A stretch of DNA of 51,124 nt. Origin: Armatimonadota bacterium. Its GTDB lineage: Bacteria; Armatimonadota; Hebobacteria; GCA-020354555; CP070648. Position 1 is the first letter of the stretch. Every line of letters starts with the position of its first letter. The position numbers and the translations under genes are program-made. Shown here piece by piece: positions 44,480-48,571 of the stretch. The stretch covers positions 4,723,889 through 4,775,012 of the forward strand of contig CP070648.1 of assembly GCA_020354555.1 (NCBI GenBank), read 5' to 3'. The notes beneath the pieces are model-generated. The model was not told the DNA's origin. It did no database searches and was given only the letters and a program-made list of their open reading frames with translations.

Positions 44480-45316
44480 CTACGGCTGATCCGGGCCGAC
44501 TTCTCCCAACGGCTCGTTCATGCTGCCGGTGCGATAGCCGCGCAGGTCAGCCGCGACGTAAGTGTAGCCTAGCTCGCGCAGGCGCGCGTCAATGCGGTCG
44601 CGCAGCGCCGGGTCGAGCAGGCGGCTGATGTCCTCCGCGGCCACCTCGATGCGCGCCACATCGCCGTGATGCCGCACCCGCACCTGCTTGAAGCCGAGGG
44701 CGCGCAGGGATGATTCCGCGGCATCCACACGGCGGAGTTCGTCCGGCGTTATCCGCTGCCCGTAGGGGAAGCGCGAGGCGAGGCACGCGAATGACGGCTT
44801 GTCCCACGTCGGCAAGCCCATGTCGCGCGACAGGGCGCGGATCTCGGTCTTGGTCAGGCCGGCTTCCTGCAACGGGCTGCGGACGCCCAGCTCGCGCGCC
44901 GCCTTCATCCCCGGTCGCCAGTCGCCGAGGTCGTCGTGGTTCGAGCCGTCACACACCCATTCCAGCCCGCGCCGCCGGGCCACGTCGAGCAGTTTGCCGA
45001 AAAGCTCCTGCTTGCAGTGGTAGCAGCGGTCGGGCGGGTTGGCGGCGAACTGCTCGATGCCGAGCTCCGAGGTCGTCAGCAGTTCATGAGGGACGTCGAG
45101 GTCGGCCGCCAGCGCGGAGGCATCCTCAATCTCGCTCTGAGGATACGTCTCGGAGCACGCGGTGGCCGCCAGCAGTCGGTCGCGCGGGAGTTCCTGCGAC
45201 GCTACCTTGAGCAGCAGGCTGCTGTCAACGCCGCCCGAGAAGGCGACGAGCGCGCTCCCCATCTCGCGCAGGATCTGGCGCAGTCGTTCCAGCTTCGCGT
45301 GGGTTTCGTTCGTCAC
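44480..45316 (-). CDS. larE: LarE-like ATP-dependent sacrificial sulfur transferase
   Basis: A 278-residue PP-loop protein. The ATP motif is AFSGGVDSS (about 25-33). Three Cys stand out: Cys98 and Cys101 in DRCYHCKQ and Cys178 in [11 protein letters not shown], the last matching the sacrificial sulfur Cys of LarE. In some LarE proteins three Cys bind a 4Fe-4S cluster used as a reusable sulfur source; this set may fit, but I have not aligned it. LarE normally adds sulfur to the nickel-pincer precursor with LarB and LarC, which are not here. GTG 45316 has GAGG upstream; GTG 45358 overlaps the thi4 stop and is an alternative. Confidence 0.85.
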
Positions 45317-45354: not shown

Positions 45355-46164
45355 TCACTTTGCCGGCGCCGCGCTGGCGAGGGACGAGGCGGCGATCTTC
45401 GCTGCTCGCTTGCCCGACAACAGCATGGCGCCGAAGGTCGGGCCCATGCGCGGCAGACCGTACACGGTTGACACGGCCATGCCGCAGACGATCAAGCCCG
45501 GATGCGCCTCGCCGGTGTGTTCGACGATCAGGTCCTCGCTGCGCTCCACCCACATCGCGCCGAAGCCGACGGTCTTGAGCAATCCTCGCTCCTCGAGCTT
45601 GCGGGCGACCTGGGCGTCGTGCCCGGTGGCGTCGATGACGACTTTCGCTTCGAGGGCGATGGGGTCAACGCAGGTTATCTCGCGCGGCATCGCGGCAACC
45701 GGGGTCCAGTTGACCACCGCGCCGGCCACGCGGTTGCCTTCGCGCAGCACGATGTCGTCGAACACGGTGAGGCTGGCGATCTTGACGCCCGCGTCGCACG
45801 CGGCGGCGATCAGCTTGGAGCACGCATGGGGGCCGTCGGCGACATAGAGCCCGGGGAACGCCTCCTCGTACGGCACGCCCAATTCGTCGAGGGCGAGGTG
45901 CCCCGGCGCGCGCACCGTCAGCTTGTTCATGAGGTAGCCGCCGATCCAGAAGCCGCCGCCGAGGTAGTTGTTGCGCTCGATGATGAAGGTGCGGTAACCC
46001 TGGGCGGCCAGCTCGCGGCCCGCCATCAGCCCGGAAGGACCGCCGCCGACGATGATGACGTCGCTCTCGACGTATTCCATGAACTGGTGGGCGAACCGGC
46101 CGACGATGGCGCGGGTGACCTCCTTCTCGCCCACTGCTGCGAACTTCGGTGATTCCTCAGCCAT
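45355..46164 (-). CDS. thi4: Thi4-like thiazole synthase
   Basis: A 269-residue FAD/NAD-binding Thi4 protein, which makes the thiamin thiazole precursor from NAD and glycine (an archaeal relative is a ribose-1,5-bisphosphate isomerase, so that is the alternative). Visible: nucleotide site VGGGPSG (about 39-45), [23 protein letters not shown], the TGHDAQV segment (about 180-186) and the C-terminal [24 protein letters not shown]. The suicidal Cys of yeast Thi4 follows the TGHD segment; here no Cys lies there, so it is probably of the catalytic type that uses external sulfide. AGGAGG precedes ATG 46164. Coupled to larE downstream. Confidence 0.87.
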
Positions 46165-46272: not shown

Positions 46273-46403
46273 TAAACATCGGGCAGCGCCGTGCGTCCGG
46301 CGCCGCCCTGAAGTGAGTTCAACCATATGATATGTTACCCACCGCAGCCGGGTTGTCCTGCCGCGGCATGGCCGCGTGCGCGACACAGAGCGCGACAGCG
46401 TCG

Positions 46404-46625
46404 TCAGGCGCGGTCGCCGCCCACAACGTAGACGAACTCGACGACATCGCCCGCGTGCAGGGGCGTGGCACCGTAGCGCGTGGGATCAATGATGCGGCGG
46501 TTGATTTCCACGGTCACCACGTCGGGGCGAATGCGTTGCTGCTCGAGCCAAGCGGCTACGGTAGTGCCGTCCTCGACCGATTCCTGTTTGCCGTTGACTG
46601 AGAGCGTGACGACCAACCGACTCAC
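46404..46625 (-). CDS. thiS: ThiS/MoaD-like sulfur carrier with masked Gly-Gly end
   Basis: A 73-residue ubiquitin-fold sulfur carrier: VTLSVNGKQESVEDGTTVAA start, VVTVEINRRII middle and AGDVVEFVYVVGG end. Gly69-Gly70 is the site that E1-like enzymes adenylate and load with sulfur. In this protein the Gly-Gly is followed by Asp71-Arg72-Ala73, so it must be trimmed first. The JAMM peptidase gene overlaps it upstream (GTGA), making it the likely trimming enzyme. The GTG 46625 has GAGAG too close upstream; TTG 46616 is possible. No thiF/moeB or thiG is in the window. Confidence 0.88.
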   Translation of the reverse strand: MSRLVVTLSVNGKQESVEDGTTVAAWLEQQRIRPDVVTVEINRRIIDPTRYGATPLHAGDVVEFVYVVGGDRA

Positions 46626-47032
46626 CTCTCATTGCGAACGACGCGGAATTTCTGCTCCGAGACCGTGCCGTTGTGGATGCGGAAGATACGCATCACCGGC
46701 CGCTTAAGATTGACGAGGGAGATGATGACGTAATCGAGGTCCGGGTAGAAGGCGAGTTCGCGGTCGCGTTCGCTGGGGTACGCCTCGCTGGCAACGTGGG
46801 AGTGATAGATCGCCAACAGCGATAGCCCTTCCCTGCGCGCGTCGCGGACGACCCGCAACTGGTCGCGCGGATCCATGAAATAGCTGTAACCGCTGTGGTC
46901 GGTGTTGATCATCGGGTACACCTTGAGCACCAGACCATCACTACCGGCCAGGATGCCGCACGCCTCCATGGGGAACTCATGGCGCACGTGCTGCTGCAGC
47001 CGCTCCATATGGCGTTTCGGTATGAGCAGCAT
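46622..47032 (-). CDS. JAMM/M67 metallopeptidase
   Basis: A 136-residue JAMM (JAB1/MPN) domain protein. The zinc motif is H77-S-H79-x7-S87-x2-D90 (YHSHVASEAYPSERD), with Glu23 in FPMEACGILAG as the catalytic acid. Bacterial members next to ThiS/MoaD-like proteins remove residues after the Gly-Gly or release conjugated cargo, as in QbsD/QbsE and Mec+/CysO. The overlap with thiS supports that role. ATG 47032 has AAAGG close upstream; the longer reading frame adds 29 unsupported residues. Confidence 0.9.
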   Translation of the reverse strand: MLLIPKRHMERLQQHVRHEFPMEACGILAGSDGLVLKVYPMINTDHSGYSYFMDPRDQLRVVRDARREGLSLLAIYHSHVASEAYPSERDRELAFYPDLDYVIISLVNLKRPVMRIFRIHNGTVSEQKFRVVRNER

Positions 47033-47257: not shown

Positions 47258-48571
47258 TCAGGGAATAGTGCGCTCCGCGGAGGTATCGTTGATGACCAGC
47301 CCGGTGACCGCCTTGGGGTAGAAGTACGTCGACTTGCCGGGCATGCGCAGCCCGGCCGATGCCACGCGCTTCACCTGCTCGACCGTGGTCGGACGCAAGA
47401 GCAGAGCGCATTCGGCTTGTCCCTCATTGACGCGCCGCACGGCCTCCGCTTCGTCCATCGCGTAGTCCACGTACTCGCCGCACCCGTCAGCCCCGAGTAT
47501 TGGGTCTATGAGCAACCGGTGAATGAGGACGGTGCCCAGCTCGTTGATGCCTCCCGGGCCAGGATCGTTGGGCAAGGACTCGGGCTTGGCGACAAGCAAC
47601 CGGCATCCCTGCGACTTGGTGTAGATCCCGAAGCGCGCGCGGCCGTCGGCATGTTCGAGGGACGCGATGAGGGACCGCGCCGCAGCGAGCGGATGTGCGT
47701 CGCATTCGACCGCGAGCGTCTCGAAGTGGCGCGCCAACAGCTCGTCGAGACGGGCCCGCTGCTCGGACGTGCGCAGTCGCAGCACGCGGTGGGTGGGCAG
47801 GATCATCATCCCCGGTTGCTCGGCAGGGCACAGCAGGACCAACACGTGGTTGAACGCGGCCTCGGCCGGCGCCGCGGGATGCGCGCGTTGCAGTTCCCGG
47901 CTCACCGCGAGGGCCGTCTCGTACCGGTGGTGTCCGTCGGCGATGAAGATCGGCCCCTGCGCGATCAGCTCGCAATAGCGATCCGTCAGCCGGTCTTGCC
48001 GGCGACGCCAGAGGCGATGGCGCTCGTCTCCCAACGCCGCCTCGGACGCCGGCTGCTCGGCCATCATCTCGGCGATGACCTCCACTATCCGTCCGTCCGC
48101 GTCGTCGTGAAGCGCGAAGACGGGGCTGATCTGTGCGCGGCACGCGAGCATCAGCCGCCGCCGATCCTCCCGCGGTGCGCGCAGCGTACCCTCGTGCGGG
48201 AGGACGATGCGCTCCTCAAAAGGCGTCAGGCGCACGGCGCAGATCACGCCGAGGCGCGTCCGGCTCTCGCCGTCAAGCATGAACGTATGCGTGCACGGGT
48301 AGAGTCCCGGCGCGTCATCGTCTGCCAGCACGCCCTGTTGCCGCCATTGCTGCAGCGCGGCCGCCGCCCGCGAGTAGCGGCCGGCGTCATCGGCAGCTCC
48401 GGCCGTGGTGAACCCGAGTTCGAGGCGAACGACATTATGTGGATCGCGATCCAGCAGGCGCTGCTCGTCGTCAGGAGCAATGATGTCGTAGGGCGGTGCC
48501 AGGACGTCGCTGAGGTCGCGGCGCTGGTACCTCAAACCGACGAACGGCCGTACAATCGGGGGCGGGGTCAC
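47258..48571 (-). CDS. DUF1015 family protein
   Basis: A 437-residue DUF1015 protein. Diagnostic stretches are VLAPPYDII at the N-terminus, NVVRLELG, GPIFIADGHHRYETAL near the middle, and RMPGKSTYFYPKAVTGLVI close to the C-terminus. The family has no established reaction; links to serine kinase-like SerK proteins have been described for some members. GTG 48571 is used because the conserved part begins nearby; the ribosome site is poor. It precedes the JAMM-thiS locus on the same strand, separated by 225 bases that contain the candidate promoter for that locus. Confidence 0.87.
   Translation of the reverse strand: MTPPPIVRPFVGLRYQRRDLSDVLAPPYDIIAPDDEQRLLDRDPHNVVRLELGFTTAGAADDAGRYSRAAAALQQWRQQGVLADDDAPGLYPCTHTFMLDGESRTRLGVICAVRLTPFEERIVLPHEGTLRAPREDRRRLMLACRAQISPVFALHDDADGRIVEVIAEMMAEQPASEAALGDERHRLWRRRQDRLTDRYCELIAQGPIFIADGHHRYETALAVSRELQRAHPAAPAEAAFNHVLVLLCPAEQPGMMILPTHRVLRLRTSEQRARLDELLARHFETLAVECDAHPLAAARSLIASLEHADGRARFGIYTKSQGCRLLVAKPESLPNDPGPGGINELGTVLIHRLLIDPILGADGCGEYVDYAMDEAEAVRRVNEGQAECALLLRPTTVEQVKRVASAGLRMPGKSTYFYPKAVTGLVINDTSAERTIP

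Follow-up and report, generated by a model that had tools for sequence, protein, structure and literature searches.

A ThiS-type sulfur carrier ending in Gly-Gly-Asp-Arg-Ala beside a JAMM protease gene in an Armatimonadota genome: probable maturation by trimming and a possible LarE partner

The window analysed here, a whole stretch of 51,124 nucleotides of an Armatimonadota contig (CP070648.1), carries on its minus strand, in this order, a DUF1015 gene (48571..47258), a JAMM metalloprotease gene, the gene of a small ThiS-type carrier, a gap of 239 bases, the genes of the thiazole synthase Thi4 and of the sulfur insertase LarE, and an FtsH-like gene (Table 1). Among the homologue loci examined in the phylum, none with this same gene order was found.

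Table 1. Features around the carrier gene (positions in the window)
Feature	Position	Strand	Basis
JAMM/Prok-JAB metalloprotease, 136 aa from ATG at 47032	46622..47032	(-)	PF14464, motifs, tree
Putative ThiS-family sulfur carrier precursor, 73 aa, ending GG-DRA	46404..46625	(-)	TIGR01683, PF02597, predicted fold
Gly69-Gly70 codons of carrier	46416-46421	(-)	sequence
Asp-Arg-Ala tail codons of carrier	46407-46415	(-)	sequence
Carrier stop codon TGA	46404-46406	(-)	sequence
GC-rich stem-loop, then T-rich stretch, between carrier and Thi4	46281..46308	(-)	sequence
Thi4 thiazole synthase, Cys165 at sacrificial position (ITCVDP)	45355..46164	(-)	TIGR00292 243 bits
LarE sulfur insertase, PP-loop, CXXC-C type	44480..45316	(-)	TIGR00268 344 bits

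Read from 46625 to 46404, the carrier gene runs GTG AGT CGG ... GTG GGC GGC GAC CGC GCC TGA, and its product ends in EFVYVVGGDRA directly before the stop. A preliminary description of this DNA had reported a carrier ending in GG-DRA with the Gly-Gly internal, and translation bears out both points; the position given there, 46404-46414, corresponds to the tail plus stop but falls one base short (46404-46415). TIGR01683 identifies the product as a ThiS (63.1 bits, cut-off 37.5), and PF02597 matches as well (44.4 bits, cut-off 22.5). No variation occurs at Asn11, Gly12, Gly69 or Gly70 among the aligned sequences, and the fold predicted by AlphaFold2 from the single sequence (mean pLDDT 78 for the model used, 47-55 for the remaining four) matches the ThiS structures 3cwi, 2cu3 and 1zud as well as TtuB 5gha. 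The carrier thus combines the beta-grasp fold and the profile of ThiS proteins with a Gly-Gly that is not free, three residues coming after it. With DRA in place it should resist activation, so that a trimming enzyme would be needed in any case.

The preliminary description had also raised a sequencing error at the gene end. No single substitution in the GAC codon yields a stop; on the other hand, if one T were missing before GAC, the gene would read GGC GGC TGA and the carrier would end at GG. The site is not a homopolymer, the genome was assembled into one contig of 4.88 Mb, and the collections searched contain no close homologue of the carrier for checking the tail. We consider a one-base deletion in the assembly unlikely.

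The JAMM reading frame is open to 47119, upstream of its ATG. Its product scores 84.3 bits against PF14464 and contains the motifs EACGILAG and HSHVASEAYPSERD, which provide a complete catalytic signature (the Glu in EACG and HSH-x7-S-x2-D), that is, the Glu and the HxH-x7-S-x2-D zinc motif of JAMM/MPN+ metalloproteases. The nearest solved structure by sequence is 2kks (E 2.5e-28). In the tree, this JAMM clusters with HcyD-type proteins and not with those linked to E1-rhodanese (96/84 for the joint clade, in which branches are long). The JAMM stop and the carrier start share 4 bp (GTGA), so that both proteins are probably translated together.

The preliminary description had named this adjacent JAMM protein as the candidate for trimming and proposed aligning homologues as a check of the tail. 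With a profile of the carrier and its relatives, 52 ThiS-type homologues were collected from 50 of the 291 genomes of the phylum, and C-termini and neighbours were read for each. All four JAMM-adjacent carriers, namely that of the window and those of G235, G234 and G041, run past GG (DRA, GAK, GAL and GAR), versus 5 of the 48 others, the remaining 43 stopping at GG or GGG (Fisher p = 4.7e-4, for an effective sample that is smaller, three of the four lying in mutually homologous operons). These three relatives belong to HcyS methionine operons; the one in G041 comprises MetY, carrier, E1, JAMM, sulfite reductase and sulfate assimilation genes (the last two named by eye). The five tailed carriers without an adjacent JAMM gene end in GGGRE (L185) or GGGSLAGGGR (L166) or have long extensions or fusions (L063, L172 and L179).

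Reading of the JAMM-homologue loci gave, by our count, 36 distinct loci in which a carrier of any type adjoins a JAMM gene. The carrier does not end at GG in 34 of them: 25 are fused ahead of another domain, mostly E1-rhodanese, with an internal GG (AGA in one), and nine of the 11 stand-alone carriers have one to eight residues past GG. The other two, L184 (G029) and L303 (G074), stop exactly at GG. Compared with the 48 non-adjacent ThiS-type carriers, non-terminal GG is in excess both for all JAMM-adjacent carriers (p = 8e-16) and for the stand-alone ones (p = 7e-6), in tests whose carrier types differ in part and whose genomes are related, so that they describe a strong trend, not independent events. 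Across this phylum, then, Gly-Gly tends to be non-terminal where a JAMM gene adjoins the carrier, and the simplest reading would be that the neighbouring JAMM proteins uncover the GG of carriers synthesised in a blocked form.

Two groups of carriers count against such a maturation step: the five tailed ThiS-type carriers without an adjacent JAMM gene and the two JAMM-adjacent ones without a tail. The latter are of the kind that the preliminary description had regarded as refuting, homologues ending at GG beside a JAMM gene; both are MoaD-type, and no ThiS-type case was found. The rule is therefore not absolute, and the protease may have another job, such as the release of amino-acid adducts, which is what Mec does. 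Alternatively, the tail could be neutral or stem from an error in the assembly, the carrier working untrimmed or being cut by general peptidases, as might be argued from the ThiS ending in GGGRE, which lies among apparent thiamine genes with no JAMM next to it (L185), and from the single missing T considered above. Since tails go so strongly with JAMM adjacency, we find this quite improbable.

We therefore favour maturation of the carrier by the adjacent JAMM protein, a step that we regard as probable on the basis of sequence comparison. The 46404..46625 gene would encode the precursor of a ThiS-type sulfur carrier, from which JAMM would cut off Asp-Arg-Ala after Gly70; the freed Gly-Gly carboxylate would be adenylated by the E1 encoded elsewhere in the genome (C1:4546901) and converted to a thiocarboxylate, whose sulfide would finally pass to a sulfur-inserting enzyme.

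Trimming of carrier tails by JAMM proteins is already known, for HcyS-Ala by HcyD and for QbsE by QbsD, so that the novelty lies in the setting, not in the principle. In Wolinella, HcyD reportedly takes off the alanine at the end of HcyS, in a study cited by PMC5764234 and PMC6225789; in Pseudomonas, QbsD is said to remove a dipeptide following GG in QbsE during thioquinolobactin synthesis. CysO, in contrast to the window carrier, has GG at its very end, and it is CysO-Cys that Mec cleaves. As for TtuB, we know of no requirement for JAMM maturation. Iyer and co-workers (2006) had suggested that cleavage by JAB proteases might liberate the C-terminal end of ThiS/MoaD fusions; they had also listed a neighbourhood of carrier, JAB, E1, sulfite reductase and O-acetylhomoserine sulfhydrylase (PMC1779556), which is exactly what the G041 operon looks like. 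The window pair shares with the HcyS system a ThiS-like carrier with residues past GG encoded next to a JAMM gene, an E1, and a JAMM protein of the HcyD group that would expose GG. Unlike HcyS operons, it has no MetY in the genome and neither sulfite reductase nor E1 beside it; its neighbours are DUF1015, Thi4 and LarE, the last two downstream, and its tail is DRA instead of GA followed by K, L or R. It likewise differs from QbsE/QbsD and from PdtH/PdtG of the PDTC cluster (PMC1779556) in that no siderophore genes or E1-rhodanese partner lie beside it. Maturation here is thus likely a further case of a known step, and the preliminary description's candidate holds up through the complete signature, the gene overlap and the tails that track JAMM adjacency, though the step is not new in kind. 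What seems unusual is the setting and the possible partnership with LarE.

With CysO/Mec/CysM the window has in common that the carrier gene adjoins the JAMM gene, and the main action of JAMM could come once sulfur has been transferred, namely hydrolysis of an adduct of carrier and amino acid, tail removal being incidental or a second activity. Several JAMM-carrier loci of the class adjoin PLP enzymes (threonine-synthase-like in L304 and, by eye, in L040), a PALP enzyme fragment flanks the JAMM gene of G010 and a cysteine-synthase-like gene that of G047 (L187), PALP-family genes exist in the window's own genome, outside the window, and two JAMM-adjacent carriers are tail-free. Yet no cysteine synthase or other PLP partner gene lies at the window pair, its JAMM goes with the HcyD type, and DRA would have to be removed regardless. 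We hold this role as the main one to be rather unlikely.

The genome contains three ThiS/MoaD-family genes and a single convincing E1-type gene, the MoeB/UbaA-like one that we propose for adenylation, which lies outside the window. Among the E1s compared it is closest (62% identical) to that of the sister genome G001, which adjoins a JAMM gene and a MoaD-type carrier ending in GG-RAVDTTWR; in this lineage, a comparable role seems to fall to a ThiS-type carrier that has a JAMM of its own. A second carrier of the window's genome (G000 C1:1044616-1044825; L001, L065 6536..6835) is of MoaD type and likewise has residues after GG (AGG-AV); neither a JAMM nor an E1 gene was seen in its vicinity. The weak match L028, from a scan of the genome contigs, was off-target and is not a carrier gene.

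ThiG, the usual client of ThiS, is absent from the genome, where only weak and partial TIM-barrel matches appear, which rules out the classical ThiS/ThiG thiazole route for the carrier. MetY is absent as well (no full-length PF01053 match; the best partial one reaches 37 bits) and a DUF39 homocysteine enzyme is present, which rules out the HcyS/MetY methionine route. The carrier therefore serves neither pathway, and maturation of a pro-carrier by JAMM, known from two pathways, would here extend to a genome without the end enzyme of the methionine one. One could regard the pair as a relict or relocated HcyS-HcyD module, now decaying after loss of MetY and other neighbours, since its nearest JAMM-carrier neighbours in the phylum are HcyS operons and MetY is missing. 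However, no damage is seen in the JAMM catalytic residues, the core residues of the carrier or the gene overlap, and with the DUF39 enzyme already there nothing obvious but another function would have kept the pair; we find such decay very improbable.

Downstream of the gap, Thi4 has a cysteine, Cys165, opposite the Met/His of multiple-turnover enzymes (7rk0, 6hk1), which rules out a sulfide-using His-type Thi4. LarE displays SGGVDS and the CXXC-C cysteines Cys98, Cys101 and Cys178, the features that define the [4Fe-4S] type (PMC9283937); a LarE of the sacrificial-cysteine type is thereby ruled out, and the protein is expected from its motifs to bind [4Fe-4S]. Each of the 92 LarE matches that were read across the phylum has CxxC. 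As LarC is present in the genome, synthesis of the nickel-pincer cofactor is plausible.

The stem-loop with its T-rich tail upstream of Thi4 is kept in G001 (L113), though the flanking genes differ, and may be terminator-, attenuator- or leader-like. Terminator-like matches in the region are not commoner than in shuffles (3 versus 2.6), and no riboswitch was detected upstream of Thi4 with Rfam. As this element stands between carrier and Thi4 and is common to G001, JAMM-carrier and Thi4-LarE may be separate transcripts. The window has about 80 additional bases after its stem-loop, consisting of repeats of CGCCTGCGGCG-like units. G001 has kept the Thi4-LarE pair without a window-type carrier or JAMM, and the two genes are also near each other in G039, G026, G281 and G282; the pair therefore appears independent of the carrier. 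This, with the leader-like stem-loop here, means that co-function of the carrier with Thi4-LarE is not required. Proximity of Thi4 and LarE, in L113 (G001), L121 (G039), L199 (G281) and L209 (G282), spans several families of the phylum and links thiazole and nickel-pincer cofactor synthesis.

Could the carrier feed Thi4, as sulfide or by turning the spent active-site dehydroalanine back to cysteine? The two genes are consecutive on one strand, Thi4 has a sacrificial Cys, and ThiG is absent. However, none of 30 Thi4 loci with 1.5 kb flanks, and none of 19 with larger flanks, has a window-type carrier or JAMM; three of these 19 have a MoaD-type carrier, kilobases away. Thi4 here apparently has its own leader. 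In Haloferax volcanii, moreover, Thi4 needs its Cys, yet deletion of the only E1 (ubaA) left thiamine-free growth unaffected (PMC4215014). Thi4 is consequently a weaker candidate and an unlikely recipient.

We tentatively prefer the downstream [4Fe-4S]-type LarE as the most likely recipient, by analogy with TtuB feeding TtuA. The thiocarboxylate of TtuB is the source of sulfide for TtuA (PMC9283937, PMC6225789), and this supply of a PP-loop [4Fe-4S] enzyme by a carrier is our model for LarE, with the difference that the partner would be LarE. The LarE of Thermotoga maritima has a [4Fe-4S] cluster and the CXXC-C pattern, and its proposed mechanism resembles that of TtuA; it works with IscS as sulfur supply in vitro (PMC9283937), which counts against the need for a carrier. 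In G010, of the same class as the window's genome, JAMM, a carrier ending in GG-TRGPAPI, a small NIL-like protein, E1 and LarE are encoded in a row, the E1 and LarE genes overlapping by 4 bp. Carrier machinery also lies near LarE in G253 (an E1, L232) and G022 (a GG-IIN carrier, L237). Altogether, four of about 90 LarE loci in the phylum have such a neighbourhood, which is no more than suggestive of LarE as recipient. Because of the PALP fragment beside its JAMM gene, the G010 carrier may mainly serve an amino-acid synthase, and a cysteine-synthase-type PLP enzyme is for the window carrier a conceivable though doubtful recipient. We found no thiocarboxylate donor for LarE or Thi4 in the open literature searched. 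If LarE is indeed the recipient, a candidate physiological sulfur donor could be named for [4Fe-4S] LarE. That the JAMM-matured carrier is a donor dedicated to LarE in nickel-pincer synthesis, and perhaps also makes the cysteine-type Thi4, a suicide enzyme, reusable, is a possibility that we put forward with low confidence.

Other arrangements were met in the phylum. HcyD-group JAMM genes lie beside an apparent ATP sulfurylase (by eye), with no carrier nearby, in L060 (G223) and L188 (G023). In L063 (3803..4318, G036), a ThiS-like domain runs past GGG into a second small domain, HicB-like by eye. MoaD-like carriers fused ahead of E1-rhodanese with a JAMM gene next door occur in L043, L045, L047, L054, L290 and about 19 other loci, and their internal GG would need cutting. 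A carrier-E1 fusion in L302 (G095) has Ala-Gly-Ala in place of GG and still lies beside a JAMM gene.
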